A stretch of DNA of 42,067 bases from contig CAMOIJ010000020.1 in NCBI GenBank assembly GCA_946615865.1, positions 1 to 42,067 on the forward strand, in the 5' to 3' direction. Shown piece by piece: positions 14,782 through 41,541 of the stretch. Numbering within the stretch: the first letter of the stretch is position 1; every line of letters starts with the position of its first letter. The notes under the pieces were generated by a model, which searched no databases, was not told the DNA's origin, and was given only the letters and a program-made list of their open reading frames with translations. A program made the translations under genes and the position numbers. The stretch comes from an uncultured Lachnospiraceae bacterium. Its GTDB lineage: Bacteria; Bacillota; Clostridia; Lachnospirales; Lachnospiraceae.

Positions 14782-14815
14782 TATGGGACCTCTGGGGTTA
14801 TGGGACCTCTGGGGT
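14782..14815 (+). repeat. GACCTCTGGGGT repeat, two copies in a 17-bp tandem
   Basis: A 17-bp unit, TATGGGACCTCTGGGGT, occurs twice head to tail with no spacer. Exact 12-mers are at 14787-14798 and 14804-14815. These are the first copies in the window; none was found in the preceding 14.7 kb. They lie directly behind the CPBP gene. Confidence 0.9.
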
Positions 14816-14831
14816 AGCTTTTCACACATAA

Positions 14832-14859
14832 AAAAAGGACCCCCGGGGGTCCTTTTTTT
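14832..14859. terminator. bidirectional terminator between the CPBP gene and the flavin oxidoreductase gene
   Basis: A near-perfect palindrome of A run, GGACCCCC, GGGGGTCC and T run serves both convergent genes. Its GGACCCC/GGGGTCC stem resembles the stem of the 12-bp repeat elements on either side. Confidence 0.85.
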
Positions 14860-14864
14860 GCATT

Positions 14865-14887
14865 AGGGGACCTCTGGGGTCCCTTTT
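14865..14887 (+). repeat. GACCTCTGGGGT repeat forming a terminator-shaped hairpin
   Basis: The copy at 14869-14880 sits in GGGGACC-TCTGG-GGTCCC followed by TTTTTT. The flanking GG/CC bases extend the core stem, and with the T run the element looks like an intrinsic terminator read on the plus strand. Confidence 0.8.
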
Positions 14888-14888
14888 T

Positions 14889-16826
14889 TCAATATACAAA
14901 AGCCTTGTCGTGTCCGCTGTGCAGCGCGTCATAGATCTGGCCGGGCCTGCAGGAATCTCCCACCAGGATGAGCTTGTCTCCGTATGCTTCGCGCAGCGCT
15001 TCATAGTCGGGTCTGTCGGGACGGACGCCCATTGCCAGAACGACCAGATCAGCAGGCAGGCTTGTCTCATCGCCGGTCTTTGCGTCAGCGATGGTCACCG
15101 CGCCGTCTTCAACAGCTGTCAGCTTCCTGCCTTTCAAAATAGCGCCGCCGTTCTTCATGATCTCCTGAGCTAGGTGCATGACCACGCTGGGATACAGGTT
15201 TCCGCCTACTTTGTCGAGCATCTCGACAACTGTGACCTTGTTCTTCTCAGAGAGGTATTCCGCTGTCTCAAGTCCTGTGACGCCGCCTCCGATGATGACA
15301 ATATTTTGATCCGCAGGGGGCGTCTCTCTTCCAAGGATATCCTCCGCAGTGACCGCTCCTTCAATGCCGGGGATGGCCGGCAGGACCGGTCTTCCGCCTG
15401 CTGCCATGAAGACTGCCTCCGCGCCGGTTGCTTTAATCGCTGCCAAATCCGCTTTCACGCCCAGCCGCACTTCTACGCCCGCTTCCTCAAGCTGTGCCTT
15501 CATAGTTTCCACAAATTCCGTGATCATTCCCTTGTTCGGAGGAATCGCAGCCAGATTGGCAGTTCCGCCGAGCTTATCCTGAGCTTCGAGCAAAACAGTG
15601 TTAAATCCACGCTTTGCCAGCGTCAGGGCAGCTTCCATGCCCGCGGGTCCTCCGCCTATGACCGCCACTTTGCGGCCGACGCCGTTCTTAACAAGTTTCT
15701 CGTCGCCGTACTCAAATTCACGGCCCAGAACAGGGTTAAGAGTACACCCCAGAGGTAGTCCGTCGTTAAGGATTCTGAAGCACTCCATGCATCCCAAGCA
15801 TTTGCGGATCAGGATGTCCTTGCCTGCCTTCGCTTTTTTGCCCCAGTCAGGATCTGCCAGGTGACCGCGCGCGATTCCTACAAAGTCCACGGCGCCGTCT
15901 TCAAGCATCTTCTCCGCGAAAGCAGGGTGCTTGACGTTGCAGACAGCTATCACAGGGATCTTAACAGCCTTGCGGATGTTGGAGGCCAGATTGATCTTCC
16001 AACCCTCTGCAAAATAGCTGGGCTCAATGATCGTCGCGCCGGAATCGTATGTGCCGCAGCTGACGTTGATGCAGCTGATGCCGAGGGCTTCGAGATATTT
16101 TGCCTGAGCGATGCCGTCCTCCTCAGTGATGCCGTCGGGCAGATAGTCGCTGCCGTTCATGCGGACAGAGATTGGGAACTTAGGGCCGCAATAAGCCTTG
16201 ATGCCCATGATGATCTCCGTGATAAAGCGCATCCGGCCCTCAAAACTGCCGCCGTATTTGTCGGTGCGCTTGTTGGTGTAGGGCGAGAGGAACTGGCTGA
16301 CCAAATAGCCGTGTGCGGCGTGGATCTCGACGCCGTCGATGCCGGACTTCTGAGCGATCACTGCGCCGGTGACGAATTTGCGGACCATTGCCTCAACTTC
16401 CTCAGTGGTCAGCGCGCGGGGCTGTTCGCCGATGACTTTGCAGGTGACGTCCGACGCCGAAACTGGCTGCTTGCCGCCGATCAGCCGGCTGGGGGTCTGG
16501 TTGCCCGGATGGTGAAGCTGAACGAAGATCTTCGTGTCATAGGCGTGAACAGCTTCCGCCAGGCGCGAGAGTTGCGCGACCATGTGAGTATTGGTGACGC
16601 TCAGCTGGTTGGGTGTGCCGACGCCGGTCTCGTCGTCGACGCGGGTGATCTCGGTGATGATCAGGCCTGCTCCGCCCCTTGCTCGATCAGCGTAGTACTT
16701 GATCATGCGGGCTCCGGCTTCGCCGGTGGACTCTGCCAGGGAACATCCCATGGCAGGCATCACGATGCGGTTCTTGAGTTCAAGATTTCCGATCATGCCG
16801 GGTTTGAATAGTTTTTCGTATGACAT
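14889..16826 (-). CDS. NADH:flavin oxidoreductase of the FadH/BaiCD type (FMN, 4Fe-4S, FAD)
   Basis: The 645-residue protein has the multidomain architecture of 2,4-dienoyl-CoA and bile-acid enoate reductases. Residues 1-340 form an Old Yellow Enzyme TIM barrel with HAAHGYLVSQFLSP (169-182) at the active site. A [4Fe-4S] cluster is held by C343, C346, C349 and C361. An FAD/NAD(P)H-binding half follows, with GGGPAGMEAA (391-400) and a second dinucleotide loop, VIIGGGVTGLETAEYL. It reduces activated C=C bonds with NAD(P)H. The ATG at 16826 follows AAAGGAGTGCAGCCTT; a longer open frame upstream has no ribosome site. Substrate is unknown; no bai or beta-oxidation genes are adjacent. Confidence 0.85.
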   Translation of the reverse strand: MSYEKLFKPGMIGNLELKNRIVMPAMGCSLAESTGEAGARMIKYYADRARGGAGLIITEITRVDDETGVGTPNQLSVTNTHMVAQLSRLAEAVHAYDTKIFVQLHHPGNQTPSRLIGGKQPVSASDVTCKVIGEQPRALTTEEVEAMVRKFVTGAVIAQKSGIDGVEIHAAHGYLVSQFLSPYTNKRTDKYGGSFEGRMRFITEIIMGIKAYCGPKFPISVRMNGSDYLPDGITEEDGIAQAKYLEALGISCINVSCGTYDSGATIIEPSYFAEGWKINLASNIRKAVKIPVIAVCNVKHPAFAEKMLEDGAVDFVGIARGHLADPDWGKKAKAGKDILIRKCLGCMECFRILNDGLPLGCTLNPVLGREFEYGDEKLVKNGVGRKVAVIGGGPAGMEAALTLAKRGFNTVLLEAQDKLGGTANLAAIPPNKGMITEFVETMKAQLEEAGVEVRLGVKADLAAIKATGAEAVFMAAGGRPVLPAIPGIEGAVTAEDILGRETPPADQNIVIIGGGVTGLETAEYLSEKNKVTVVEMLDKVGGNLYPSVVMHLAQEIMKNGGAILKGRKLTAVEDGAVTIADAKTGDETSLPADLVVLAMGVRPDRPDYEALREAYGDKLILVGDSCRPGQIYDALHSGHDKAFVY

Positions 16827-16971
16827 AAGGCTGCACTCCTTTCTTTTATTATTACTTCTTTGCAGCGTATGAGCTTTGCGTTGCGGTTGCTGGTCCCGAT
16901 CTGCGTGTTTCATTATGTCATTTCTTTTTTCTCAAGGACCTTCCTGCCTTCTGTATTTTGCTTAAAAGAAT

Positions 16972-17003
16972 GGCTGTGAAGGGACTCGCATCCCTTCACA
17001 GCC
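16972..17003 (-). terminator. terminator after fba
   Basis: A 13-bp perfect stem, GGCTGTGAAGGGA (16972-16984) with its complement (16991-17003) and a 6-nt loop, is followed on the minus strand by ATTCTTTT. Confidence 0.85.
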
Positions 17004-17028
17004 TGTATTTACATAGTTATGAATGATC

Positions 17029-17997
17029 TCAAGCTTTGCCAGCGCTGCCGAGAACGTTAACGATCTTGTGAGCGACCATATCCTTAACCGCCTGTCTTGC
17101 GGGTTTGAGATACTGTCTGGGATCGAAGTGATCCGGATGCTCAGCAAAGTATTTCCTGATGTTGCCGGTCATGGCAAGACGGATATCGGAGTCGATATTG
17201 ATCTTGCAGACAGAAAGTTCTGCAGCGTGACGGAGCTCATACTCCGGAATGCCGATAGCATCGGGCATATTGCCGCCATATGTGTTGACCATCTTTACGA
17301 ATTCCTGAGGAACGGAGGAAGATCCGTGCAGAACGATCGGGAATCCGGGCAGTCTCTTGGAGACTTCCTCGAGAACGTCGAAACGAAGCGGCGGAGGAAC
17401 AAGGATGCCGTCCGCATTGCGTGTGCACTGCTCGGGTTTGAACTTATAAGCGCCGTGGGAAGTGCCGATCGCGATCGCGAGGGAATCGCAGCCGGTTCTG
17501 GTAACGAATTCCTCAACTTCTTCGGGACGTGTGTAGCTGGCTTTGCCTGCCTCGACAACAACTTCATCCTCTACGCCTTCGAGAGTTCCGAGCTCTGCCT
17601 CGACAACAACACCGTGTGCGTGTGCATATTCAACTACCTGCTTGGTCAGAGCAATATTGTCTTCAAAAGACTTCGAAGAAGCATCGATCATGACAGAAGT
17701 AAATCCACCGTCGATGCAGTTCTTGCACAGCTCGAAGGAATCGCCGTGATCAAGATGAAGTGCGATCGGAATCTGAGGATTCTCAATTACAGCTGCTTCT
17801 ACAAGTTTCACCAGGTAGGTGTGGTTCGCATATGCGCGCGCGCCCTTGGAAACCTGAAGGATTACAGGGCTGTTCAGCTCGCCTGCAGCTTCGGTAATAC
17901 CCTGAACGATTTCCATGTTGTTCACATTGAAAGCGCCGATGGCATAACCGCCGTCATAAGCCTTTTTAAACATTTCAGTCGTAGTAACTAATGCCAT
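17029..17997 (-). CDS. fba: class II fructose-1,6-bisphosphate aldolase
   Basis: The 322-residue enzyme has the class II aldolase zinc motif HLDHGD (H81, D83, H84), the second metal region EAELGTLEGVED, and phosphate-binding segments GTSHGAYK and VLHGSSSVP. It cleaves fructose 1,6-bisphosphate to DHAP and glyceraldehyde 3-phosphate in glycolysis and runs in reverse in gluconeogenesis. AAGGAGACAACGAA precedes the ATG. It is monocistronic, with its own promoter (18048-18076) and a strong terminator. A perfect palindrome of the 12-bp repeat sits just upstream of the promoter. Codon choice is restricted, as expected of a highly expressed gene. Confidence 0.95.
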   Translation of the reverse strand: MALVTTTEMFKKAYDGGYAIGAFNVNNMEIVQGITEAAGELNSPVILQVSKGARAYANHTYLVKLVEAAVIENPQIPIALHLDHGDSFELCKNCIDGGFTSVMIDASSKSFEDNIALTKQVVEYAHAHGVVVEAELGTLEGVEDEVVVEAGKASYTRPEEVEEFVTRTGCDSLAIAIGTSHGAYKFKPEQCTRNADGILVPPPLRFDVLEEVSKRLPGFPIVLHGSSSVPQEFVKMVNTYGGNMPDAIGIPEYELRHAAELSVCKINIDSDIRLAMTGNIRKYFAEHPDHFDPRQYLKPARQAVKDMVAHKIVNVLGSAGKA

Positions 17998-18047
17998 TTC
18001 GTTGTCTCCTTATTTAGTATGTGGGTTAATTGGATGTTACTAATACT

Positions 18048-18076
18048 ATTATAATGCTTTCGTACCGAGAATCCAA
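18048..18076 (-). promoter_or_regulatory. promoter of fba
   Basis: On the minus strand TTGGAT (18071-18076) and TATAAT (18048-18053) are spaced by 17 bp. The palindromic repeat pair begins 27 bp upstream of the -35 box. Confidence 0.75.
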
Positions 18077-18102
18077 TCGCGAATAATCGACCTCCAATAA
18101 TC

Positions 18103-18152
18103 GACCTCTGGGGTAGTTTGTGGACAGATGTCCACAAACTACCCCAGAGGTC
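18103..18152. repeat. inverted pair of GACCTCTGGGGT repeats, 24-bp perfect palindrome
   Basis: Two extended copies face each other. The arm at 18103-18126 starts GACCTCTGGGGTAG and continues TTTGTGGACA; its exact complement is at 18129-18152, with only GA between. This 24-bp-arm cruciform lies between the divergent promoters of fba and degV. The layout resembles two inverted REPs forming a REPIN. A partial motif start, CGACCTCC, precedes it at about 18088. Confidence 0.9.
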
Positions 18153-18175
18153 AAATGATAATGATAAGGCAAAAT

Positions 18176-18197
18176 ACTTGTTGACATTTCAACAAGT
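18176..18197. promoter_or_regulatory. palindromic operator 1 of the degV-marR operon
   Basis: A perfect 9+4+9 palindrome, ACTTGTTGA-CATT-TCAACAAGT, overlaps the degV -35 box. It shares the GTTGA-N4-TCAAC core with operator 2, 37 bp centre to centre. The MarR-family regulator encoded downstream is the obvious candidate to bind it. Confidence 0.65.
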
Positions 18198-18209
18198 CGG
18201 TGCTATTCT
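18181..18209 (+). promoter_or_regulatory. promoter of degV-marR
   Basis: A consensus TTGACA (18181-18186) and TATTCT (18204-18209) are separated by 17 bp. Transcription would start near 18216, inside the second palindrome. Confidence 0.7.
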
Positions 18210-18213
18210 TCTG

Positions 18214-18233
18214 AACGTTGACAAATCAACGTT
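18214..18233. promoter_or_regulatory. palindromic operator 2 of the degV-marR operon
   Basis: The perfect 8+4+8 palindrome AACGTTGA-CAAA-TCAACGTT covers the expected transcription start. With operator 1 on the -35 box, a bound repressor would cover the whole promoter. Confidence 0.65.
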
Positions 18234-18270
18234 TAACAATGTTTTGAAATAGAGAAGGAGAAACGCACAA

Positions 18271-19119: not shown

Positions 19120-19175
19120 GGCTATTCAATGATCACTACGCGAGCCCCTGCGCCGCGTTTGGAAAGGATGGCATA

Positions 19176-19625
19176 ATGGAAAACCGTTTTGAGCATTTCA
19201 GTCTGGATATTTTTAACATTTCCAGGTACTGGAACAAGATCGCAACGGATGAAATGAAAAAATATAGTTTGAGGGGCACACACGCTCTCTATCTTTTGAT
19301 GCTTGACGGCTATGAGGGAGAAATCACTGCTGCCCGGCTCGCCGATCTCTGCCAGCGTGATAAAGCAGATGTCTCCCGTGCTCTTGCTGACTTTCAGAAA
19401 AAAGGAATCCTGGAACCTTACAGCGGTCCCAGGTACAGGGCAACCCCGAAACTCACCCCCCTGGGGCGGTCGATTGCCTCGCAGATCAGGGCGCGCGCCA
19501 CAGTCGCCCTCGACCTGGCCGGGCAGGGCATTACAGCAGAAATGCGCGAGAATATGTACCACTGCCTCGATCTCATTGCCGCCAACATGCGCGGTATTTG
19601 TGAAGAGGGATTGATGAATCAGTGA
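19176..19625 (+). CDS. MarR family transcriptional regulator
   Basis: The 149-residue protein has a winged-helix core: the recognition region ITAARLADLCQRDKADVSRALADFQKKGILEP, a wing SGPRYRATPKLTPLGRSIA, and dimerisation helices at both ends. AAAGGATGGCATA precedes the ATG. An open frame continues upstream through the end of degV but has no support. It lies 56 bp behind degV and probably represses its own operon through the two TTGA-N4-TCAA palindromes. By analogy with lipid-sensing MarR proteins such as FabT, it may respond to fatty acids; this is inference. Confidence 0.85.
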   Translation: MENRFEHFSLDIFNISRYWNKIATDEMKKYSLRGTHALYLLMLDGYEGEITAARLADLCQRDKADVSRALADFQKKGILEPYSGPRYRATPKLTPLGRSIASQIRARATVALDLAGQGITAEMRENMYHCLDLIAANMRGICEEGLMNQ

Positions 19626-19638
19626 ACTGACTTTATTC

Positions 19639-19694
19639 GACCTCTGGGGTAGTTTATTTGGTGGTTTTTTTATGTCAAACTCGACCTCTGGGGT
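19639..19694 (+). repeat. GACCTCTGGGGT repeat, two direct copies
   Basis: Exact copies at 19639-19650 and 19683-19694 are both preceded by TC and followed by AG, with a 44-bp period. The first begins 14 bp after the marR stop codon. The downstream AGTTT of the first copy is shared with the palindromic pair at 18103 and the copy near 27052. Confidence 0.9.
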
Positions 19695-19723
19695 AGCATA
19701 TTATGAGGTAGCATATTAAGAAT

Positions 19724-21502: not shown

Positions 21503-21555
21503 GACTTAGACCTCTGGGGTGGCTTGTTTGTGACTTAGACCTCTGGGGTGGCTTG
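21502..21555 (+). repeat. GACCTCTGGGGT repeat in a 29-bp tandem duplication
   Basis: A unit starting TGACTTAGACCTCTGGGGT and ending GGCTTG is duplicated with a 29-bp period (21502 and 21531); exact 12-mers are at 21509-21520 and 21538-21549. The left copy provides GAGGT upstream of the methyltransferase ATG. The right copy forms the last four codons (TPEV) of the XRE-AbrB gene. Confidence 0.9.
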
Positions 21556-21972: not shown

Positions 21973-23047
21973 TTTTCTTCTCCTCTTTGATGCCAAGCAC
22001 CGCCCACCTGTAGCCCGGGATTCTTGATATAATTCCATTCAAAAGATAGGCGCCAGCAAATCCTGCAATCAAACTCAGGAGATACACCGCCGGTGCCGGA
22101 AGGATCCCGCGCCTGGCCACAAACAAAGCAACCGAAGAGATCCCCAAATAGTGAAACACATACAGTCCGAAGCTCCTCTTGCTCATCCAGCGGGTAAATC
22201 TGTTGCTGAAGTCGCAATATTTTGCCATACCGCCGAAAATCGCCAGACAGGCAAAGTATCCGTACGTGACGAACAGAACGGAGCGATATACCGGGTTATC
22301 CGCATAAACTTCGCCAAAATAGCGAGCGCAGAATGCCGTACCCAGCACCCCAGAGGTCGCCGCCAACATCGGAAACCATCTCTTCAGGACCTCAATCACC
22401 TCATCGTGGGACAGCACAAAATAGCCCAGCAGAAAAACAAAGAAATACAGCCCGAACCGGTAGACGCAGATGATCGGCGTATTGAGGATTTGCGCTGCCC
22501 CATAGGTCGGAATACCGAGCACGACAAGCACTGGAAGGCCAGCTTTTCCGCAGGCGTTCCAAAGCCTGTCTTTGTCGATTCTCCGCACAAGCACTAGCAA
22601 CATAGAAAACAGCCACAGCAAATGAATGTACCAAAGGACTCCGCTTCCGCTTGCGATACAGATCAGTACCTTCGCAATCAGAGGTATACCAGGATCTTTG
22701 AGCACAGCGTCTCCAAGAGCAACATTTACATATCCCTGCAGAAACTGGAATGCAACCAGTCCGATCGTCGAAGGCACTAGAAGCTTCGTCGTCCTGCTGC
22801 TGATGAATTCTCTGTGGGAATGATTATCCAGATAGAGCCGCGAGCTGATCCCGGAGACCATGAAAAGCAGCATCATGAACCAGGGGTACACGATGTACTG
22901 AAACACGTCAAAATACTGAACTTCAAGATCTGTGATCTTACCGCAAACCCCCGGAATCCCTTCTGCGTTATACATATAGATCACATGGTATAAAACTACG
23001 ATCACAACAGTGATCCATCTGATGTTATCTAAGTAATATTTTCTCAT
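21959..23047 (-). CDS. acyltransferase 3 family membrane protein
   Basis: The 362-residue protein has about ten membrane helices. It begins with the family signature MRKYYLDNIRWITVVIVVLYH, with the R/H motif in the first helix, and has FMVSGISSRLYLD after helix 2. Members transfer acetyl or other acyl groups to cell-surface glycans or small molecules. The ATG at 23047 is preceded by GGAGGTGGGATTATT; the longer open frame to 23254 reads through repeat copies and is rejected. Codons at 22347-22358 are an exact in-frame repeat copy, encoding TSGV in a loop between helices. It is followed by the overlapping XRE-AbrB gene. Confidence 0.85.
   Translation of the reverse strand: MRKYYLDNIRWITVVIVVLYHVIYMYNAEGIPGVCGKITDLEVQYFDVFQYIVYPWFMMLLFMVSGISSRLYLDNHSHREFISSRTTKLLVPSTIGLVAFQFLQGYVNVALGDAVLKDPGIPLIAKVLICIASGSGVLWYIHLLWLFSMLLVLVRRIDKDRLWNACGKAGLPVLVVLGIPTYGAAQILNTPIICVYRFGLYFFVFLLGYFVLSHDEVIEVLKRWFPMLAATSGVLGTAFCARYFGEVYADNPVYRSVLFVTYGYFACLAIFGGMAKYCDFSNRFTRWMSKRSFGLYVFHYLGISSVALFVARRGILPAPAVYLLSLIAGFAGAYLLNGIISRIPGYRWAVLGIKEEKKNVQG
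22347..22358 (-). repeat. intragenic GACCTCTGGGGT repeat in the acyltransferase gene
   Basis: An exact 12-mer lies inside the acyltransferase frame. It reads A-TSGV-L in a polar loop between predicted helices and adds no stop or frameshift. Confidence 0.85.
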
Positions 23048-23150: not shown

Positions 23151-23216
23151 GGTTGACAAGGTACCCCAGAGGTCGGGCAGGTCGGTTGACAAGGTACCCC
23201 AGAGGTCGGGCAGGTC
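23151..23216 (-). repeat. GACCTCTGGGGT repeat in a 33-bp tandem duplication
   Basis: A 33-bp unit beginning GGTTGACAAGGTACCCCAG is repeated exactly at 23151 and 23184; the 12-mers (minus orientation) are at 23163-23174 and 23196-23207. Further GGGCAGGTCGG-like fragments continue to about 23245. The cluster lies upstream of the acyltransferase gene. Confidence 0.9.
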
Positions 23217-24773: not shown

Positions 24774-24857
24774 ATAATGGACCTCTGGGGTCGCGGTTCA
24801 ATAATGGACCTCTGGGGTCGCGGTTCACAGGGGGTCACTCAAACCGACCTCTGGGGT
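24774..24857 (+). repeat. GACCTCTGGGGT repeat, tandem pair plus a third copy
   Basis: A 27-bp unit starting ATAATGGACCTCTGGGGTCG is repeated at 24774 and 24801 (12-mers 24780-24791 and 24807-24818). A third exact copy is at 24846-24857. The cluster fills the space between the convergent LRR and GNAT-esterase genes and probably carries their transcription stop. Confidence 0.9.
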
Positions 24858-24863
24858 GGCTTT

Positions 24864-26081
24864 TCAGCGGTTCATGAGCCATGCAAACGCTTTTGCAGTG
24901 CGAAGATCCGGATCCTTGAAATGATTTCCTTTATTCCATTCCAATTCGCAGTCAACCCCAGAGGTCGCAAGCAGATTATTTGCCTCACGGATCGCTGCTC
25001 CGACCTTAGACATAACCGGATTTCTCGTTCGTTCCTCGCGGTCGCCCAGGCTGAGGTATACCGCTTCCGTATGGATCTCGTTTTCTTGCATAAAATCTGT
25101 AAATTGCGGGAACCAGACCGACGGTGACGCCGACGCAATTCCGTCGAAGGCATTTGTCTGATAGCCTGCCCAGAGCGCAAACAGCGCTGCAAGCGAGTAT
25201 CCGCCGATAAAGACTCTCTTTATTCCCCGCGATTTGATTTCATCCGGGGTCGGCACTATTTTGCCCAAGACAAATTCCAGTGTTTCCTTTGCACCGCCTC
25301 CAAACTCCTCGTTTCCAAAAACTGCCGGAGCCTGCCACGGAGACAGATCATCATTCCAGTTGTTCACTCTGATTGCTTTAAGGTCAAAACATTGCCCGCC
25401 GGACAGCTTCTCAATGTAAGAAACTTCGTTCTCGATCACCTCAAGATCATGGTCGTCAACCATCTGAATCAGCAGCGTGTCTGCTTCCGGATTTCCAAAG
25501 GAAAGTACTTGGAAGGCAGATACTTGAGCCTTGCGCGTTTTCCTCTCCTCCGTTTTCCACACCCCAGAGGTCAAACAGTTCACATGTCCGATCCGTTTTT
25601 CATGCATCAGAGGGACATCCACATCTTGCGTCGTCCATTGATAGCGAAATCCACATTTTTCCTGAACACGTTTTGACTTTGTATTGCCGTCGTAATAGCC
25701 GCACCAGACCTTTGTCATTCCCAAATCCTCAAAAGCATGCCGAAGCATCTCGTGCACAGCTTCCGGAATGATGCCCTGCCCCCAGAATGGCTTCCCCAGC
25801 CAGAAGCCAAGTTCGCACTCATCATCGCGGTCCGTCATGTCAGTGTAACCGTTCAACTTCAGTTCGATTGCGCCGATTGCCTTACCGTCTGTTTTCAGGC
25901 ATACAGCATATGCCTCTCTTCCGGTAAAAACGTTTTTGATTACTTCCCTGCTCTCCTCAATACTTTGATGAGGCGGCCAGCCGGCAATCGGTCCGACATC
26001 CGGATCTTTGGCGTATTCATATAAGTCACTTGCATCGCCGTCTTCCCAACGGCGCAGAACAAGTCTTTCTGTTTCCAGCAT
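24864..26081 (-). CDS. GNAT acetyltransferase fused to an esterase-like alpha/beta hydrolase
   Basis: Residues 1-170 are a RimJ/RimL-type GNAT domain: METERLVLRRW-like start, ELGFWLGKPFWGQGIIPEAV acetyl-CoA region, TKSKRVQEKCGF. Residues about 180-405 are an alpha/beta hydrolase of the putative-esterase type with nucleophile elbow IGGYSLAALFALW, SPSVWFPQF, SLGDREERTRNPVMS and terminal GNHFKDPDLR. Each half looks complete, and such domains usually occur as separate proteins. The junction HVNCLTSGVWKTEE is written by a repeat copy (25561-25572) at the place where a GNAT protein would normally end. A second copy (24955-24966) writes TSGV in the hydrolase. GAGGGACTATC precedes the ATG. Substrates are unknown. 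Confidence 0.8.
   Translation of the reverse strand: MLETERLVLRRWEDGDASDLYEYAKDPDVGPIAGWPPHQSIEESREVIKNVFTGREAYAVCLKTDGKAIGAIELKLNGYTDMTDRDDECELGFWLGKPFWGQGIIPEAVHEMLRHAFEDLGMTKVWCGYYDGNTKSKRVQEKCGFRYQWTTQDVDVPLMHEKRIGHVNCLTSGVWKTEERKTRKAQVSAFQVLSFGNPEADTLLIQMVDDHDLEVIENEVSYIEKLSGGQCFDLKAIRVNNWNDDLSPWQAPAVFGNEEFGGGAKETLEFVLGKIVPTPDEIKSRGIKRVFIGGYSLAALFALWAGYQTNAFDGIASASPSVWFPQFTDFMQENEIHTEAVYLSLGDREERTRNPVMSKVGAAIREANNLLATSGVDCELEWNKGNHFKDPDLRTAKAFAWLMNR
24955..24966 (-). repeat. intragenic GACCTCTGGGGT repeat in the esterase half
   Basis: An exact copy reads A-TSGV-D between a surface helix and the strand DCELEWN of the hydrolase fold. The frame is kept. Confidence 0.85.
25561..25572 (-). 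repeat. intragenic GACCTCTGGGGT repeat at the GNAT-esterase junction
   Basis: An exact copy reads L-TSGV-W at the end of the GNAT domain, just before the linker to the esterase. It coincides with the fusion point. Confidence 0.85.
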
Positions 26082-26095: not shown

Positions 26096-26158
26096 TGATA
26101 TGACCTCTGGGGTCATATGCTTGTCTGATACTGATATGACCTCTGGGGTCATATGCTT
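26096..26158 (+). repeat. GACCTCTGGGGT repeat, two hairpins with extended stems
   Basis: A 27-bp unit (26096 and 26132, 36-bp period) contains ATATGACC-TCTGG-GGTCATAT, an 8-bp perfect stem around the repeat core (26098-26118 and 26134-26154). Here the flanks pair through ATAT/ATAT rather than the GG/CC or GA/TC pairs of other copies. The pair lies between the GNAT-esterase start and the tyrosine phosphatase stop. Confidence 0.9.
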
Positions 26159-26970: not shown

Positions 26971-27063
26971 CAAACCACCCCAGAGGTCTCTTGGCACCCC
27001 ATAACAAACCACCCCAGAGGTCTCTTGGCAAACTACCCCAGATGGCAAACTACCCCAGAGGTC
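26971..27063 (-). repeat. GACCTCTGGGGT repeat cluster, three exact copies and one variant
   Basis: Exact copies in minus orientation lie at 26977-26988, 27011-27022 and 27052-27063, with a truncated ACCCCAGATGG at 27035. The first two share a 34-bp unit starting CAAACCACCCCAGAGGTC. On the minus strand each is followed by GGTTTG or AGTTTG, the same trailer as at 18103. The copy at 27052 supplies the last codons and stop of the membrane-protein gene. Confidence 0.9.
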
Positions 27064-29100: not shown

Positions 29101-29160
29101 GTTCATACCCCAGAGGTCGTGTTCACACACACTACCCCAGAGGTCGTGTTCACAGAGGTC
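29101..29160 (-). repeat. GACCTCTGGGGT repeats upstream of the transposase
   Basis: Exact minus-orientation copies lie at 29107-29118 and 29134-29145, then a truncated CAGAGGTCGTGTTCAC at 29153. Each is followed by GTGTTCAC, giving a 27-bp and then a shorter direct repeat. This cluster is the left border of the transposase locus. Confidence 0.9.
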
Positions 29161-29360: not shown

Positions 29361-30116
29361 ATGTCGACACGCCCTCGTCTTTCCAGCAGTTTAGGTATTT
29401 ATCACGTAGTTTATCGCGGGATCAATAAGCAGCGAATCTTCGAAGATGATGAAGATTATGAAAAGTTTTTATCAATCCTTCGAAAATACCAGCCTATTTG
29501 CGGCTACAAGCTCATTGCCTATTGTCTGATGTCCAACCACATTCATCTGCTCATTAAACCGGGAGAAGTACCATTACCACGGATTTTTCAGCGCATAATT
29601 CCCAGTTTTGTATACTGGTATAACAAAAAATACCAACGCGTCGGCAGTCTTTTTCAGGCTCGTTTCAAAAGCAGGCCTGTCAACAATCGTTCGCAGTTCC
29701 TCATCGTAACAAGATATATTCATCAGAACCCGGTTAAAGCCGCAGTCTGCAATCATCCAAGAAAGTACAAATACAGCAGCTTCCGGGGATATTTTGACAA
29801 TGACCTGATCGATAGTGAGTTAGTGTTATCAGAAGTCAGCAAAAAAGACTTTATCGACTTCAATTGCGAAAAGAACTGTGATCTGTGTCTTGATATTGAG
29901 GAGGAAATCCCGCGGCTTAGCGATGAAATCGCGACCAGCATCATGCAGAGGCTGTCCGGATGCCGCAATGTGACGGAATTTCAATCACTTGATATCGATC
30001 GCCGGGACAATGTGTTATGCAGTATGCGCAAAGCACATATCTCTATGAAGCAGGCCAGCAGGATAACCGGAATCTCGTATGGTGTGATCAAAAAAGCATT
30101 GGCGCTGGCAGTCTAA
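29361..30116 (+). CDS. Y1 tyrosine transposase, REP-associated (RAYT) type
   Basis: The 251-residue protein has the Y1_Tnp (IS200/RAYT) fold. It opens with GIYHVVYRGINKQRIF, has the metal-binding HUH motif SNHIHLLIKP (H60, H62), the VGSLFQARFKS segment, and the catalytic tyrosine Y119 in RYIHQNPVKA. A C-terminal extension ends in a helix-turn-helix-like MKQASRITGISYGVIKKAL. Single-domain IS200 TnpA is about 150 residues; this longer form is typical of RAYTs, which nick and move hairpin-forming REP sequences. AGGAGGTCATTTCTTT precedes the ATG. No IS ends were identified. Repeat clusters flank it on both sides (29107-29160 and 30169-30180), which makes it the prime candidate for mobilising the 12-bp repeat. 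Confidence 0.85.
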   Translation: MSTRPRLSSSLGIYHVVYRGINKQRIFEDDEDYEKFLSILRKYQPICGYKLIAYCLMSNHIHLLIKPGEVPLPRIFQRIIPSFVYWYNKKYQRVGSLFQARFKSRPVNNRSQFLIVTRYIHQNPVKAAVCNHPRKYKYSSFRGYFDNDLIDSELVLSEVSKKDFIDFNCEKNCDLCLDIEEEIPRLSDEIATSIMQRLSGCRNVTEFQSLDIDRRDNVLCSMRKAHISMKQASRITGISYGVIKKALALAV

Positions 30117-30168
30117 GCCATTTGAACTGAACTGTGTGCTGACCACGCCACTGCGTAAACAGCATACC

Positions 30169-30180
30169 ACCCCAGAGGTC
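30169..30180 (-). repeat. GACCTCTGGGGT repeat downstream of the transposase
   Basis: An exact copy in the same orientation as the upstream cluster forms the right border of the transposase locus. It is also one edge of the phosphoesterase remnant. Confidence 0.85.
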
Positions 30181-30416
30181 TCCTACTTGCCCGTGCCCGG
30201 GCATTTCAGGCATGCGGTTTCCCTGCCAGTATCTGTCGTCAATCATCATGACCGGAACATGCCCAATAATATGGTATCTGTTGTCAGTTCTATATTTTGC
30301 GGGATCTGTATGTTCAAAAGATCGCCACGGAGAATACCATACCACATGCGTCACGTCGTGTGCGGTCAACGGCTTATCACGCCATCTGATAGTGCCATGA
30401 TCGGGAAGGTATCTAT
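30181..30416 (-). pseudogene. metallophosphoesterase remnant bounded by repeats
   Basis: About 78 codons on the minus strand read HGTIRWRDKPLTAHDV, VVWYSPWRSFEHTDP and RYHIIGHVPVMM, then a DDRYWQGN segment. This resembles the C-terminal half of calcineurin-like phosphatases, where GHTPV-type motifs hold a metal-binding histidine. There is no N-terminal half with GDxHG/GDxVDRG motifs and no start site. The similarity stops where a repeat begins on each side (30169-30180 and 30417-30428), so it is a fragment trapped between repeats. Assignment is from motif memory and moderate. Confidence 0.5.
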
Positions 30417-30500
30417 GGCCTCTGGGGTCATCCTCTCTACTCTCTATGGCCTCTGGGGTCATCCTCTACCCCTGACATCCAATTCTAAGGCCTCTGAGAC
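30417..30500 (+). repeat. variant repeats GGCCTCTGGGGT in a 31-bp tandem
   Basis: Two one-mismatch copies (30417-30428 and 30448-30459) sit in a duplicated CTATGGCCTCTGGGGTCATC unit. A more decayed GGCCTCTGAGACC follows near 30490. The space from here to 30540 holds nothing else recognisable. Confidence 0.8.
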
Positions 30501-30551
30501 CGCAGTCCCTATAGTAAAGGGTTCCTAAAGTGTGCAAAACGATCAAAATCT

Positions 30552-30637
30552 GACCTCTGGAGTCGAAAATCTGTGGGGTCGAAAATCTGAAAATCTGACC
30601 TCGACCTCTGGGGTCGAGAAAATCTGACCTCTGGGGT
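30552..30637 (+). repeat. GACCTCTGGGGT repeat cluster downstream of hflC
   Basis: One variant (GACCTCTGGAGT, 30552-30563), a fragment (CTGTGGGGTCGAAAATCTG, from 30571) and two exact copies (30603-30614 and 30626-30637) are linked by repeated AAAATCTGACC. The copy at 30603 has a CTCGACC/GGTCGAG extended stem. The cluster ends 15 bp from the hflC stop codon and is the only visible candidate for the operon terminator. Confidence 0.85.
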
Positions 30638-32855: not shown

Positions 32856-32976
32856 GACCTCTGGGGTACTTCATTTTGCGAGAAATCCCGACCTCTGGGG
32901 TGCGGCACCCTACCCCAGAGGTCTCAATACCATTCCCGCGGCACCCTACCCCAGAGGTCTCAATACCCCAGAGGTC
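32856..32976. repeat. mixed direct and inverted cluster of five GACCTCTGGGGT copies
   Basis: Two plus-orientation copies (32856-32867, 32890-32901; shared GAAATCCCGACCTCTGGGGT) face three minus copies (32912-32923, 32948-32959, 32965-32976). The last two form a 17-bp tandem, ACCCCAGAGGTCTCAAT. The inner copies at 32890 and 32912 can pair as a REPIN-like inverted repeat that includes GGGGTGCGGCACC. The cluster fills the space between the zinc-ribbon gene and hflK and ends in degenerate GCCCAGGGGTCATCC near 33011. Confidence 0.9.
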
Positions 32977-33031: not shown

Positions 33032-33481
33032 TCACATATTCGACACGATCATGCTTACAAGATTTAACACGGCCAGAACCGTACCGACTATAAGGATCTT
33101 CTTCGCTGTATCCATTGTCTTCAACTGCTCTTCAACCGTCGCCGCCCGATTGATCCGCAGCACATAGACGAGCGCCGCGATACCCGGGATCGTGCAGAAC
33201 AGGATCACAAAAATACTCCAGGCTATATATCCGCCGATCGGTATCGGCGTTACTGTCCTATTATTCGCTCCGGAATCAAAGCTGTTATGGACGGGGACCT
33301 CGCTCTCCTGCGCCGGCACAGTGTTCTCCTGCGTCTGATAATCGATCGGCTCGAATTCCGGCACACTTTCTACCCCGGTATTCTCCGCCTTCGCCGCGTC
33401 ATTTTCAAACGGCGCCCCGCAGAAATTGCAGAACTTATTGTCGTTCTCGTTTTCATTGTGGCAGTAAGGACAAATTTTCAT
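33032..33481 (-). CDS. zinc-ribbon membrane protein with CD225-like domain
   Basis: The 149-residue protein starts with a zinc ribbon, CPYCHNENENDNKFCNFCG (four cysteines), followed by a Glu/Pro-rich linker of about 50 residues. The C-terminal half has two membrane helices with PIGGYIAWSIFVILFCTIPGIAALVYVLRINRA and TAKKILIVGTVLAVLN, matching the CD225/dispanin pattern. Many Firmicutes carry such proteins; function is unknown. TAGTAACAGCC-side sequence gives the rc GGGAGGCTGTTACT before the ATG, a good ribosome site. It is followed by the five-copy repeat cluster and then hflK. Confidence 0.8.
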   Translation of the reverse strand: MKICPYCHNENENDNKFCNFCGAPFENDAAKAENTGVESVPEFEPIDYQTQENTVPAQESEVPVHNSFDSGANNRTVTPIPIGGYIAWSIFVILFCTIPGIAALVYVLRINRAATVEEQLKTMDTAKKILIVGTVLAVLNLVSMIVSNM

Positions 33482-37231: not shown

Positions 37232-37394
37232 TTTGTCCGCGCTTTCTTCTTGCTGTCATAACTGATATAATTAAATGCATATAAATGCACTATTTCACAT
37301 AATCAATTATCATTATACAGAAATCACATTGCTTCTGCCACAATGGGGAGGCCTTTCTCCGATACTCCTTCCCTAAGAAAATGGAGAATGAACT

Positions 37395-38855
37395 ATGTCA
37401 GGAAACTCTACTTCCCGAACCAATACATTCCATTCTGCCATCCCGCAGCCTGCCCGTATCCGCATCCAGCCGCCCGGTCAGCGCATCTTGCGCTCTGTCA
37501 TCTCCGTCTGGCTCTGTATGGTCGTCTACGTCCTTCGCGGTATGCGCGGCGAGCCCTTCTACTCGATCATTGCCGCCTTGCAGTGCGTACAGCCTTACTC
37601 CTCAAACATGCTCAGAGAGGGCAAAGACCGCATCATTGGTACTCTGGTAGGCGCATTCTGGGGCTCCGCGATCCTCTTTCTGGAGCTCCTTCCTGTTGGA
37701 GGCGACTTCCGCACCACAGTGGTCTTCTATATCCTGCTCGGGGTCTTCACCGGACTCGTGATCTACTCCACTGTCCTTTTGAACATCTCACAATACGCTC
37801 TCTTCGCCGCCGTTGTCTTTTTGGGCATCGCTGTGTACCATATCGAGGACGCGAATCCCTTCATTCATGTCTTCTATCGTACCCTCGAGACGATCATCGG
37901 CGTCGGCGTGGCGATCATCGTCAACTCTCTTCACTTTCCCAGGGTCCGGGACCGCGAAACACTTTTTGTGTCAGGCATCGACCATGTCCTCTTCAGAGAG
38001 GACCGGGAACTCAGCCGCTTCACAAAGGTTGAACTCAACCGTTTTCTCCATGACGGCATGCGCTTCTCAGTCTCGACCAAGCAGACTCCCGCTACCGTTC
38101 GTGAGATCCTGTCCGGGGTCGACCTGCGTCTTCCCATTATTGCAATGGACGGCGCCGTTCTCTATGACCTCCATACGATGAAATACGTCCGCACTGTCAA
38201 AATAGAGCCCGCCCTGGTCAGCCACATCACGGATTTTCTGCACGCTGAGGGGATTCCCTTTTTTGTCAACACTGTACAGGACAACCTTCTTGTCATCTAC
38301 TTCAAGGACTACAAAGACCTGATCCTGGAGGAAGTCCGCGACACTCACCATCACACCCATCACACCCCTACCCCAGAGGTCGAGGACGAGCCGGTTCCTG
38401 ATCTGGCCCTCTCGAAGAGCGCCTACATATCCATGGCGAAGCTTTATCACAAAAAGCGGACCTCTCCCTATCGCAACTATGTAAGGACGAACGCGACGAT
38501 CAATAAAGATGTCCTGTACATTCTGATCATTGACCGCGAAGAGAACATCGACCGTCTCCACGAAAAGCTAAAGGAGCAGCTCTGGATCGACAGATGCCGC
38601 ATAAATTTTGACTATTTTGACTGTGAGGAAGGGGAAAAGATCCTCCGCATCTATGCGGCGGAAGCTAACCGACCCGCAATGCTCGGATACCTGCAGCGCT
38701 ATGTGGGCGCCCCCAAAGTCATCACTTTCGGCACTGAAACCGACGAATGCGATGTCCATATCAAAGATGCGGGCCGCGATCAGACGGTCAAAGAACTCAA
38801 GAAGCGATTTGAACCTGTCAGCCTGAAAGGCTGGAAAAATATACTGCATATGTAA
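37395..38855 (+). CDS. aromatic-acid-exporter-like membrane domain fused to a degenerate Cof-type HAD domain
   Basis: Residues about 25-180 hold six helices of the ArAE/FUSC-like type (GEPFYSIIAALQCVQPYSSNM, then RIIGTLVGAFWG). Residues about 188-486 follow a Cof-type HAD fold. Motif I, normally DxDGT, reads FVSGIDHVL, so the nucleophile Asp is Gly194. Motif II is kept as SVSTKQTP, and the late acidic motif, usually GDxxND, reads FGTETDE. The HAD part is therefore probably catalytically dead, perhaps a ligand-sensing module. An exact repeat copy encodes TPEV (326-329) in a His/Pro-rich loop. GGAGAATGAACT precedes the ATG. Confidence 0.75.
   Translation: MSGNSTSRTNTFHSAIPQPARIRIQPPGQRILRSVISVWLCMVVYVLRGMRGEPFYSIIAALQCVQPYSSNMLREGKDRIIGTLVGAFWGSAILFLELLPVGGDFRTTVVFYILLGVFTGLVIYSTVLLNISQYALFAAVVFLGIAVYHIEDANPFIHVFYRTLETIIGVGVAIIVNSLHFPRVRDRETLFVSGIDHVLFREDRELSRFTKVELNRFLHDGMRFSVSTKQTPATVREILSGVDLRLPIIAMDGAVLYDLHTMKYVRTVKIEPALVSHITDFLHAEGIPFFVNTVQDNLLVIYFKDYKDLILEEVRDTHHHTHHTPTPEVEDEPVPDLALSKSAYISMAKLYHKKRTSPYRNYVRTNATINKDVLYILIIDREENIDRLHEKLKEQLWIDRCRINFDYFDCEEGEKILRIYAAEANRPAMLGYLQRYVGAPKVITFGTETDECDVHIKDAGRDQTVKELKKRFEPVSLKGWKNILHM
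38370..38381 (-). repeat. intragenic GACCTCTGGGGT repeat in the HAD loop
   Basis: The exact copy reads TPEV in frame, inside a low-complexity HHTHHTP...EDEPVPD loop. It is the only copy between 33.0 and 40.1 kb. Confidence 0.85.
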
Positions 38856-38859
38856 AAAA

Positions 38860-38894
38860 AGAGCCGCAGCTTCCGTTTAAGGAGCTGCGGCTCT
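38860..38894. terminator. terminator between the exporter-HAD gene and mgtC
   Basis: A 12-bp stem, AGAGCCGCAGCT (38860-38871) with AGCTGCGGCTCT (38883-38894), has an A run on its left, giving a T tail for the minus-strand mgtC transcript. It probably works in both directions. Confidence 0.8.
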
Positions 38895-38900
38895 CTCGAT

Positions 38901-39644
38901 TCAGATTAAATGTATGACATTCAGCGGACTGTAACTGAAGGAAACAACTTCCGGGATTTTGCTTGCGAATTCCTTAATGTCCTTGTATTCAATCGCATTG
39001 GCTCCTCGCACGACAAATTCAAACTCTGTCACCCCATCCCGCTGCCAAGTGATGTTGCTGCTTGTCAGTTGAACTCCCCAGCTTGTGAACTGTTCTCTCA
39101 ACAGCTCCTCAAACTTTTCGCTGTCTTTCACTATGAACTTCAGCTGATAGCCGTCGTAGGATTCCGCGCCGATCGGCATTCTGTAGAACACGTACTGCAG
39201 AAGCCACAACAGCACAGCCGTAAAAGCAACCACCACATACATGCCCGCTCCGACCGCGAGGCCGATGCCGGCAGTCATCCAGATCCCGGCAGCTGTAGTC
39301 AGTCCCTTGATGCTGCTGCCCACCTTGAAGATCACGCCCGCGCACAGAAAAGATATACCGCTGACAGCCTGCGCGGCGACTCTGGCGGGATCCGCGCCTT
39401 TACTTCCCAAAACTTCCATTCCTGTAGTCTGATTCAAATCCGCAAAACCGTATTTGGAGACCAGCATAATCAGTGCCGCAGTGACACATACTATGATGTG
39501 CGTGCGAATGCCGGCTTCCTTGAAACGTTTGCTCCGCTCAAGTCCGACCATACCGCCGACCAAAAATGCCACCACAAGGCGAATACAGAAGTCCGCGTAC
39601 TGTGCTGTTGTAAACTGATTAAAATAGTAACTCGCCAGTGTCAT
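38901..39644 (-). CDS. MgtC/SapB family membrane protein
   Basis: The 247-residue protein has the MgtC N-terminal domain with FCIRLVVAFLVGGMVGLERSKRFKEAGIRTHIIVCVTAALIMLVS and AAQAVSGISFLCAGVIFK, about five helices in all, then a cytoplasmic ACT-like tail (about 165-247). MgtC proteins modulate P-type ATPases and growth at low magnesium or low pH. AGGAGAAATGAGC precedes the ATG at 39644; an ATG two codons earlier sits only 2 nt from the ribosome site and is less likely. Confidence 0.88.
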   Translation of the reverse strand: MTLASYYFNQFTTAQYADFCIRLVVAFLVGGMVGLERSKRFKEAGIRTHIIVCVTAALIMLVSKYGFADLNQTTGMEVLGSKGADPARVAAQAVSGISFLCAGVIFKVGSSIKGLTTAAGIWMTAGIGLAVGAGMYVVVAFTAVLLWLLQYVFYRMPIGAESYDGYQLKFIVKDSEKFEELLREQFTSWGVQLTSSNITWQRDGVTEFEFVVRGANAIEYKDIKEFASKIPEVVSFSYSPLNVIHLI

Positions 39645-39697
39645 GCTCATTTCTCCTAGATGAAATCAATATGAGTCTATTGCACACAGAAAACTTC

Positions 39698-40108
39698 TCA
39701 GATATTTGAGAAGACAAAACTGTATGTTGACAGCAGGTTTCCCAGATCGTCTTCCACCTCAGCATTGATAAAACATAGCTTCCTGCCCCGTTTGATCACT
39801 TTCGCGCGGCTTCGAAGTTCCATAGCCTCCGGGGCTGCTCCACGCAGGTAGTTCACATTCCCGCTCACGGTGACGCCGTTCCCGCCGGTGCTCAGATAAG
39901 CCATGCCCGCAGTATTGTCTGCCAGATTGAACAGAACAGCTCCGTAGGGCACATTGTAGAAATTTCTATCTTTTGACATAAGCGGGGCTGACGCCTCCGC
40001 TTCTCCGTCCTCAACTCTCGAAAATCTGATTCCGAATTTGCTTTCGATATCCTCCAGCCCCATTCGGATCGCTTCTTCACTGTTCTTAGGGGTCATTCTC
40101 GTCACCAC
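39698..40108 (-). CDS. PaaI-type hotdog thioesterase
   Basis: The 136-residue protein has the hotdog fold. A glycine-containing NVPYGAVLFNLADNTAGMAYL central helix has Asp in the usual acid position, followed by the strand series TVSGNVNYLRGAAPEAMELRSRAKVIKRGRKLCFINAEV. This is close to the PaaI/DUF4442 group, which hydrolyses acyl-CoA thioesters in the cytoplasm. The start is GTG at 40108 with AAAGGAATGC before it. Substrate is unknown. Repeat hairpins lie upstream. Confidence 0.8.
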   Translation of the reverse strand: MVTRMTPKNSEEAIRMGLEDIESKFGIRFSRVEDGEAEASAPLMSKDRNFYNVPYGAVLFNLADNTAGMAYLSTGGNGVTVSGNVNYLRGAAPEAMELRSRAKVIKRGRKLCFINAEVEDDLGNLLSTYSFVFSNI

Positions 40109-40164
40109 GCATTCCTTTTAGTTGTACTCTTATAATAATGTTCTGCAGTTTAGAATGCAAAGGG

Positions 40165-40241
40165 AAAAGGGACCTCTGGGGTCCCTTTTTCCCTTGGGAC
40201 CTCTGGGGTCCCTTTTTCTCTTGAGACCTCTGGGGTCTCAA
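40165..40241 (+). repeat. three GACCTCTGGGGT hairpins in a 27-bp array, terminator-like
   Basis: Exact copies are at 40171-40182, 40198-40209 and 40225-40236. The first has a 10-bp stem, AAAAGGGACC/GGTCCCTTTT, then another T; the second has GGGACC/GGTCCC plus TTTTT; the third has TTGAGACC/GGTCTCAA. The array starts 1 bp from the stop codon of the Cthe_2159-like gene and very probably terminates it. It shows stem covariation clearly: GGG/CCC in two copies and GAG/CTC in the third. Confidence 0.9.
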
Positions 40242-40242
40242 T

Positions 40243-41541
40243 TTACCATCTTCCGCCGCGCATGCCGCCCATTCCGCCTCCCATCATCTGATTGGATACG
40301 GTGTCAGTCTCAGTCCCATTGACGATCAGCGTGCATCCTGTCTTCTGGCAGGTTCCGTCATAGTCGAAAGCACTCTGGGCAGTAATATCAAGCGTTCCTC
40401 CTGTGAGGATCAGATTAGCGTTGGAGTCGACTGCGTCTGTATCGCCTGATCCCATCACGATCGTGACATAGCCTCCGGTAATTTCAAAGGCAGGTGTGAT
40501 CTTAGCCGATTTGTAAGCCGCGTTAATACCATCGTCGCTGGCCTCGATATTAATCGTACCGCCGTTTACCTGAATCCAGGTCGCTTCAAGACCTTCATGA
40601 GCCTTAAGGTTCAGTTCGCCGTCATCGATCTGAATGATCGTCGTAGCATGAACAGCGTCATCATCGGACTCGACATTGAGCGTACCGCCGCAGATATAGA
40701 CAAATCCTACAGTGTCATCTTCATCGTTCTCCGCGTGAAGAGCGTCTTTCTTTGTAGCGATGTTAATGGTGCCGTCCGCAATACGAATTGAGTCATTGGC
40801 TTCCAGTGCATCCGAAGTGCAGGTGATGTTGATCGTGCCTCCGGTGATCTTGAGATCATCCTTGCTGGTCACTCCGTTGTCCGTGGACTTGATCGTAAGA
40901 GTTCCTGTTCCGTTCAAAACCAGATCATCCTTGCTGAAGATCACTGCGTCTGTGTTGGTATCGCCGTCAGCTGTGAAGGTTCCGGTTACTGTAAGGGCGT
41001 TCTCCGTGCTCGTAGTGGTTACAAATACCTTGTCCGCACTCTTTACATAGATGCAGGGAGTGCTGTCATTTGTTATGGATACGCCGTCGAGAACAATCTG
41101 AACCTTGTCCTCATCGCCTGCTTCTACCACGATAGACGCGTTTGCTGCAGTTCCGGTGATCACATAGACACCCTCTGAGGTGATCTTAATGGTCTGTCCA
41201 TCCGTGATCGTGTATTTCTGCGCTTCGCTCAGGTCCGCCGTCTGCTCAAGGTCTCTGCTGGTGAACATATCCGTCGTATCGAGCGCGCCTCCGCTAACCA
41301 TGTTCAGGGAAGCGGTCGCCGCCGCATCTTCCGCAACATCCTCAGAGACCGTTACCGTCCCTGCGCTGTCTAATGTGTAACCCGAGACCTCTGGGGTAGC
41401 TTCAGCGGTGTATCCAGAGACCTCTGGGGTGGTGGTCTCAGTTCCGAATGCACCGGCCATTACTGTAAAGCCTGCTGCCACCGAGATCATAAATGCTGCT
41501 GTTCCTGCTGCCGCTATTTTAAGATAGTTGTTATTTTTCAT
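40243..41541 (-). CDS. secreted Cthe_2159-type (carbohydrate-binding domain) beta-helix protein
   Basis: The 432-residue protein has a signal peptide (about 1-32, ending VMAGAFG). A Thr/Ser/Ala-rich linker follows, then the repetitive beta-helix typical of the Cthe_2159 family: EGVYVITGTAANASIVVEAG, LVLNGTGTLTIKSTDNGVTSKDDLKITGGTINITCTSDALEANDSIRI, with Asp-rich turns that bind calcium, and an unusual Met/Gly-rich end MMGGGMGGMRGGRW. The family is linked to polygalacturonate or cellulose binding. Two exact repeat copies encode TPEVSGYT twice, 11 codons apart, in the linker just after the signal peptide. AAAGGAGTTAATC precedes the ATG. Confidence 0.82.
   Translation of the reverse strand: MKNNNYLKIAAAGTAAFMISVAAGFTVMAGAFGTETTTPEVSGYTAEATPEVSGYTLDSAGTVTVSEDVAEDAAATASLNMVSGGALDTTDMFTSRDLEQTADLSEAQKYTITDGQTIKITSEGVYVITGTAANASIVVEAGDEDKVQIVLDGVSITNDSTPCIYVKSADKVFVTTTSTENALTVTGTFTADGDTNTDAVIFSKDDLVLNGTGTLTIKSTDNGVTSKDDLKITGGTINITCTSDALEANDSIRIADGTINIATKKDALHAENDEDDTVGFVYICGGTLNVESDDDAVHATTIIQIDDGELNLKAHEGLEATWIQVNGGTINIEASDDGINAAYKSAKITPAFEITGGYVTIVMGSGDTDAVDSNANLILTGGTLDITAQSAFDYDGTCQKTGCTLIVNGTETDTVSNQMMGGGMGGMRGGRW
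41386..41430 (+). repeat. two intragenic GACCTCTGGGGT copies, 33-bp in-frame period
   Basis: Copies at 41386-41397 and 41419-41430 lie in the secreted protein's linker. On the coding strand both read TPEVSGYT. The period is a multiple of three, so the tandem kept the frame. Confidence 0.9.

Follow-up and report, generated by a model that had tools for sequence, protein, structure and literature searches.

A 12-bp repeat in an uncultured Lachnospiraceae bacterium as the probable recognition word of a REP/RAYT-like system

We have analyzed a stretch of 42,067 nucleotides from an uncultured Lachnospiraceae bacterium (contig CAMOIJ010000020.1, C20 below, of assembly GCA_946615865.1), which we call the window, and a 12-bp word, GACCTCTGGGGT, that recurs through much of it. 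Our conclusion, held with considerable confidence, is that this is the recognition word of a mobile-repeat system akin to that of repetitive extragenic palindromic (REP) sequences and REP-associated tyrosine transposases (RAYTs), run by the Y1 transposase encoded at 29361-30116 and by its paralogs. An earlier note, made from the letters of the window alone, had favored such a reading, and it is supported: the word is abundant, it tracks close relatives of this RAYT, and the predicted fold of the enzyme is nearest that of Escherichia coli TnpA-REP. The system works like known ones; what sets it apart is the word itself, the way enzyme and word diverge within one genus, the clusters that copies form near some RAYTs, and the group of bacteria that hosts it.

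The window contains 38 exact copies of the word (22 on the plus strand, 16 on the minus strand), as first noted; 100 dinucleotide shuffles contain none. The "about ten variants" reported beside them amount to nine with one mismatch and seven with two. The two sparse regions had also been read correctly: the first 14.78 kb holds neither the word nor any variant within two mismatches, and a single copy, at 38370, lies between 33.0 and 40.1 kb. Low abundance genome-wide had been named as a reason to abandon the idea; the genome (2.68 Mb in 106 contigs, 88% complete) holds 185 exact copies (95 + 90) and none of a reversed control word. We inspected the contig regions of 121 of these copies (59 on contig C3, 38 on C20, 14 on C14 and 10 on C1). 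In the window 13 copies lie wholly within a predicted open reading frame (ORF) and 25 do not, although 90% of the span is coding, implying that extragenic sites are preferred but not used exclusively. A scan of the window against Rfam at gathering scores gave no matches, nor did a search of viral contigs for exact GACCTCTGGGGTAGTTTGT.

The note's other reason for giving up the idea, an equal density in relatives that lack any Y1 transposase, is not borne out either. Among 200 genomes of the family, one per genus, many copies were present only in the window's own genome; 11 of the other 199 carry one each, and the reversed control word occurs once in 17 family genomes, each from a different genus. 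Within the window's genus, which probably consists of uncultured Lachnospiraceae largely from ruminants, 18 of 62 genomes carry the word, in 1 to 235 copies, and 44 have none. A RAYT relative is detectable in 27 of the 62 (E <= 0.001) and is close in 12 (E <= 1e-90). All 12 genomes with a close RAYT have at least ten copies of the word, compared with 2 of the 50 without one (Fisher 4e-11, a value that is too small because the genomes are related to one another). Where only a distant RAYT is present, 11 of 15 genomes have no copy at all.

The association extends to the identity of the word. As in the window, where the repeat stands on both sides of the transposase gene (Table 1), a repeated motif flanks the RAYT gene on both sides at many loci. 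From a wider set of 79 RAYT loci, 8 with short flanks were dropped; at 33 of the 71 evaluable loci a both-sided 10-mer scored above all 40 simulations, and at the remaining 38 it did not. Close relatives of the window's RAYT are flanked by GACCTCTGGGGT or near variants of it (TACCTCTGGGGT forms at locus L101, CACCTCTGGGGTG at L104). Other loci have their own motifs: GACCTTTAAGGTC at L034, a GGTCAAATGACC form at L036 and L137, GACCTCTAGGGT and similar words at L135, and GACCGGAGGGTTACCCTTCGGTC at L103; more distant RAYTs have GGGGACRG words. L034 and L103, whose RAYTs belong to the same clade, have cognate motifs that lack GTRG. We placed 96 RAYTs, taken from the genus and from genome contigs, on a tree made by a quick search without bootstrap; 13 rows were labeled ACCTCTGGGGT, 52 GGGGACRG and 31 other. 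All 13 ACCTCTGGGGT rows fall within one 17-member clade (SH-aLRT 99). The label requires three changes on the tree, against a mean of 12.4 after shuffling (0 of 500 shuffles as low), and a single change when the 31 "other" rows are removed.

These flank motifs also made a prediction, which we examined by looking for a motif taken from one locus across the genus (62 genomes). GGGTWACCCTYCGGTC occurs 43 times in its genome, G252 (11 on the contig of origin), and once across the other 61. GACCTTWAAGGTC is found at seven places in G241, two of them on the contig of origin, and at most twice in any other genome. GACCTCTAGGGT has 21 copies in its source, G215, and 20 in G206, with no more than two in every other genome. 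G206 contains two full RAYT paralogs and one partial, and there the 12-mer and GACCTCTAGGGT each surround their own RAYT: the counts are 32 and 1 on C12 between 27 and 63.5 kb, and 2 and 11 on C24 (Fisher 7e-8). In G215 they are 64 and 0 on C42 and 5 and 8 on C61 (6e-8; among the matches listed, 100 of 105 word copies). The repeat type is thus specific to its RAYT, less strongly so for a second family, GGGGACGGTTCT, discussed below.

The window's RAYT is a RAYT-type HUH transposase (Y1) whose catalytic residues are intact. Its protein matches Pfam Y1_Tnp (4e-14), and the nearest structure to its predicted fold is 4er8, the 165-residue E. coli TnpA-REP, to which it is only 15% identical over 162 residues. 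The fold matches mainly residues 1-168, so it barely tests the C-terminal part, where the predicted structure has helices; the whole protein has 251 residues, compared with about 238 for TIRYT/subclass 2.1, whose C-terminal domain is HTH-like. HTH_23 and HTH_28 appear weakly (E <= 1) in 11 and 5 of 64 relatives, and neither in the window protein. Published features of the subclasses point two ways: its length and its FQ motif fit subclass 2.1 (signature NHVH, FQ, YIELNP or Y[IV]HLNP), and NHIH and YIHQNP are closer to the printed 2.6 signature (Bacteroidetes, 179 aa). The enzyme is most likely of the TIRYT/group 1 type; both the flanking sequence at related loci and its longer C-terminal part favor this over the GTAG-REP type. 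The window's genome encodes one full-length RAYT and one partial relative, with matches on C20 and C21 only. Phage records gave one weak match, 25.5% identical over 57%. Related RAYTs from metagenome-assembled genomes of Prevotella (L184, L190, L197) and Coriobacteriia (L140, L147) nest among the clostridial ones in the tree; this placement suggests either transfer between phyla or misbinned contigs.

The arrangement of the copies is more varied than a uniform hairpin family. The earlier note had described a hairpin with a 4-bp stem, GACC/GGTC; this requires a C after the 12-mer, which is present in 10 of the 38 window copies. In seven copies the stem continues past ACC/GGT for at least three further pairs, a number reached in none of 2000 permutations (mean 1.07), and the stems of the other 31 are weak, so the description holds for a minority. 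Likewise, the continuation GGGGTRGYTTG had been ascribed to many copies; GGGGTRG follows in 18 of 38 (GTAG in 11, GTGG in 7) and is not general. On C3, by comparison, GTAG or GTGG follows in 50 of 59. The hallmark of canonical GTAG REPs (groups 2/3), GTRG at the foot of a stable hairpin, does not characterize this family. Inverted pairs account for 36 of the 59 C3 copies (starts 38 or 56 bp apart), 8 of 14 on C14, 4 of 10 on C1 and 4 of 38 in the window, where copies are mostly single or in tandem. The REPIN-like palindromes of C3 mostly have AGTTTGT arms (42 of 59 copies). At one intergenic site, C3 36084-36233, the window's genome has a GACCTC palindrome, and the orthologous sites in G207 (C18) and G250 (C5) carry a palindrome of another family (GGGGACGGTTCTTCTGACA...).

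Tandem copies share their upstream flank. We compared neighboring copies on one strand no more than 110 bp apart, 184 pairs in all, with orthologous loci of close relatives counted in. Of these pairs, 25 are perfect tandem duplications, and 41 have a 5' flank of 7-10 nt common to both copies, compared with 11 of 5000 random pairs. Regular 17-bp arrays, in which the 12-mer alternates with a 5-nt spacer in up to six consecutive exact units, occur in G215 at C42 10502-10760 and 35846-35942. A hint that a T precedes duplications (14 of 16) was set aside for lack of independence among the cases: a 5-nt spacer is present in 10 of the 16, and in no fewer than 6 of these 10 the T is the last base of a copy or near-copy lying upstream.

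A mechanism may be sketched from these arrangements. The RAYT would bind single-stranded DNA bearing the word and cut nearby; judging from the edges of the duplications, cuts might fall 5-10 nt upstream and close to where GGGGT ends. Such a cut would leave a 3'-OH that might be extended over a short stretch before the ends are rejoined. Tandem units of flank plus word would result if a nick next to the word were followed by brief extension and rejoining, and folding back would yield inverted pairs; the outcome would be local tandem duplication, spread near the enzyme's own gene and occasional transfer elsewhere. PMC8266576 notes that the 3'-OH produced by HUH cleavage can serve as a primer for replication or take part in strand transfer, and that REPs might be disseminated by both routes. 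The element would most likely be selfish or domesticated, and any role of individual copies as terminators or boundaries would be a side effect of it. A broader proposal, which we advance tentatively and would not yet bet on, is that TIRYT/group 1-type RAYTs drive large repeat populations by this local copying (nick near the word, extension by a few nucleotides, rejoining), building arrays in cis near the enzyme's own gene and loosening gene order between them, and that specificity can shift by a single base when the enzyme is duplicated.

Local spread is consistent with where copies are found. The window cluster is centered roughly on its RAYT. In other genomes, 33 of 52 copies in G206, 26 of 49 in G252 and, among the matches listed, 70 of 100 in G215 have a full or partial RAYT no more than 20 kb away, where 3-5% would be expected. 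Clustering around the RAYT is not general, however, since a GGGTWACCC family in G252 is spread over 12 contigs. Comparison with G250 and G245, whose aligned bases are 97-99% identical to the window's, reveals small duplications or deletions at many window copies.

Several observations weigh against our interpretation. The word occurs without a close RAYT in G235 (19 copies), G249 (17; this assembly is 93% complete), G242 (7) and G209 (5). In the window's own genome, C3 carries 59 copies between 9 and 42 kb and no RAYT match; our guess is that a second RAYT type (68-71% identical; in G245, G248, G250 and G252) is missing from this assembly. The window protein scores 66 bits against NCBIfam REP_Tyr_transpos, under the cutoff of 80. 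For two copies that share a coding gene, the difference from relatives consists of substitutions in the word and not of an insertion. A search for empty sites, comparing whole C3 palindromes with contigs of four relatives, found no clean insertion with a target duplication; one candidate, at C3 25659-25755, was rejected since the G245 site retains a GAGGTC remnant and is better read as a deletion. Finally, GGGGACGGTTCT, with up to 201 copies in a genome, is scattered over many contigs. At least 20 copies are present in 8 of 12 genomes with a RAYT of its clade, assigned by E-value, and in 8 of 50 without (p 0.001), but this means that half of the 16 genomes so endowed lack the assigned RAYT. 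As a separate observation, G217, G224, G228, G233, G243 and G244 hold 33-138 GGGGACGGTTCT copies, and no RAYT was found in them using the window protein as query.

Could the repeats instead be passengers of a horizontally acquired, plastic region, amplified by slippage and homologous recombination, with the transposase merely linked? We consider this unlikely, though it accommodates a good deal. Copies are confined to islands: on C3, 75 sites within two mismatches lie at 9.0-42.2 kb, against one in the other 26.8 kb of the first 60 kb. Tandem arrays resemble slippage products, and C3 has its island without a RAYT match. C3 also shows 26 gene-sized differences from relatives, and 39 of their 52 edges lie within 30 bp of a motif in either genome (11.8% of C3 positions qualify); this association is only suggestive, because repeats and gene edges both favor intergenic DNA and alignments tend to stop in repeats. 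What slippage leaves unexplained is that the word changes with the RAYT, that motifs taken from the surroundings of a given RAYT abound in its genome and hardly occur elsewhere, and that two one-base variants each surround their own RAYT in one genome. A somewhat less probable alternative is that the copies are host sites that serve the cell, for example by terminating transcription or by binding a host regulator or nucleoid protein. The hairpins followed by T runs at 40171-40236 and the excess of copies outside ORFs would fit, but among the window copies the extended stem is limited to those seven, most genomes of the genus do without the word, and genes of like function exist without it.

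We regard it as quite improbable, and slightly more so than host sites, that the repeats are remains of an insertion sequence (IS) or miniature inverted-repeat transposable element family mobilized by a different, unseen transposase. The inverted pairs at defined spacing resemble small inverted-repeat elements, and some genomes have copies without a close RAYT; yet the motif sits in the flanks of RAYT genes and co-diverges with RAYTs, and we found neither a constant element longer than the palindrome nor a target duplication. The alternative raised by the earlier note, a DNA uptake signal like that of Neisseria, scattered to mark the species' own DNA, seems to us scarcely credible: the word is short, strongly conserved, oriented and able to form terminators, but such a signal should be spread genome-wide, and this one is restricted to islands and patchy within the genus (no search for competence genes was made). 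A REP/RAYT-like system remains our preferred explanation.

The features of the window are collected in Table 1. A small ORF at 33032-33481, with zinc-ribbon and CD225 matches, adjoins the repeat cluster at 32856-32976; the stretch that holds it is missing from the close relative G250, which has about 66 bp here against about 620 bp in the window. Downstream of the RAYT, an ORF at 30136-30528 has no Pfam or NCBIfam match and is probably no gene; G250 and G245 are longer here by several hundred bases, so the window version looks eroded.

Table 1. Copies of the 12-mer and the transposase gene in the window (coordinates in window positions)
Feature	Position	Strand	Basis
Span of the 38 exact 12-mer copies	14787..41430	.	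exact count
Three copies; first two a 17-bp tandem duplication (5-nt flank + 12-mer)	14787..14880	+	
REPIN-like palindrome of two inverted copies with 38 bp between their starts; DNA fold -28.3 kcal/mol	18103..18152	.	
Two direct copies	19639..19694	+	
Two direct copies, 29 bp apart	21509..21549	+	
Lone copy within acyltransferase ORF	22347..22358	-	
Tandem duplication, 33 bp, carrying the 12-mer	23163..23207	-	
Three direct copies; first two a 27-bp tandem duplication	24780..24857	+	
Copy within GNAT gene; substitutions here relative to G207, no gap	24955..24966	-	
Copy within the same GNAT gene as 24955..24966; G248 has substitutions inside the word	25561..25572	-	
Two direct copies, both hairpins with the stem extended by 5 pairs	26102..26149	+	
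Three direct copies with common flank; different number in G245	26977..27063	-	
Two tandem copies upstream of RAYT gene	29107..29145	-	
RAYT-like Y1 (HUH) transposase gene, 251 aa	29361..30116	+	Pfam, NCBIfam, predicted fold
Copy immediately downstream of RAYT gene	30169..30180	-	
Two copies further downstream of RAYT gene; first with 4-pair stem extension	30603..30637	+	
Five-copy cluster, both orientations; rearranged in G250 and G245	32856..32976	.	
Single copy in ORF; G245 and G250 have 6-bp expansions at this site	38370..38381	-	
Three direct copies, stem extensions of 7, 3 and 5 pairs; T runs after two	40171..40236	+	
Two direct copies in an ORF	41386..41430	+	

On how RAYTs spread their repeats, the papers cited here deal mostly with proteobacteria. 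Among the matches listed in a search of an open-access library for such a system in Clostridia or for these words, neither this word nor REP/RAYT repeats in Lachnospiraceae appear, and the terms Firmicutes and Clostridi are absent from the text of PMC2817692. In this genus RAYTs can be compared with their words in many pairs of graded divergence, among them a genome with two paralogs for words one base apart, and there are close relatives in which changes at the copies can be read; both recognition specificity and the copying mechanism are therefore testable here.

For Pseudomonas fluorescens SBW25, PMC3116915 describes REPINs, tandem units that carry flank, and a repeat cluster next to each RAYT. 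The system reported here is similar in its hairpin-forming inverted doublets on C3 (in the window only 4 of 38 copies pair in this way), its tandem units that include a 5' flank and its clusters beside RAYTs. It lacks a canonical GTAG-hairpin unit, and whereas SBW25 doublets are described as random in extragenic space, 53-70% of copies in three genomes lie within 20 kb of a RAYT (in G215, among the matches listed), so that random extragenic spread is not what we see. The E. coli TnpA-REP/REPtron is described in PMC8266576 as requiring a GTAG motif and an interrupted palindrome, and the low identity and greater length of our protein set it apart from that enzyme. It is also longer than the IS200/IS605 transposases (IS608, ISDra2), and it is not a multi-copy IS.

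The closest resemblance is to the TIRYTs and TIRtrons. According to PMC3733652, TIRYTs are flanked by inverted repeats GGGGWSAS, and some families are moderately abundant, with many dimers or clusters. The points in common are a RAYT-like protein (about 250 aa) that has an additional part at its C-terminus, a GGGG core in the flanking repeats, and dimers and clusters; moreover, GGGGACRG, which is near the published GGGGWSAS, occurs at least twice within 1 kb at 52 of 96 related RAYT loci. The window motif itself does not fit GGGGWSAS. In PMC6006769, subclass 2.1 is equated with RAYT group 1, matching TIRYT, and that paper reports no REP-like sequences for it. If our subclass assignment is true, repeats would now be assigned to a RAYT type described as being without them, with counts that reach 235 in a genome and motifs that diverge with the enzyme within a single genus.

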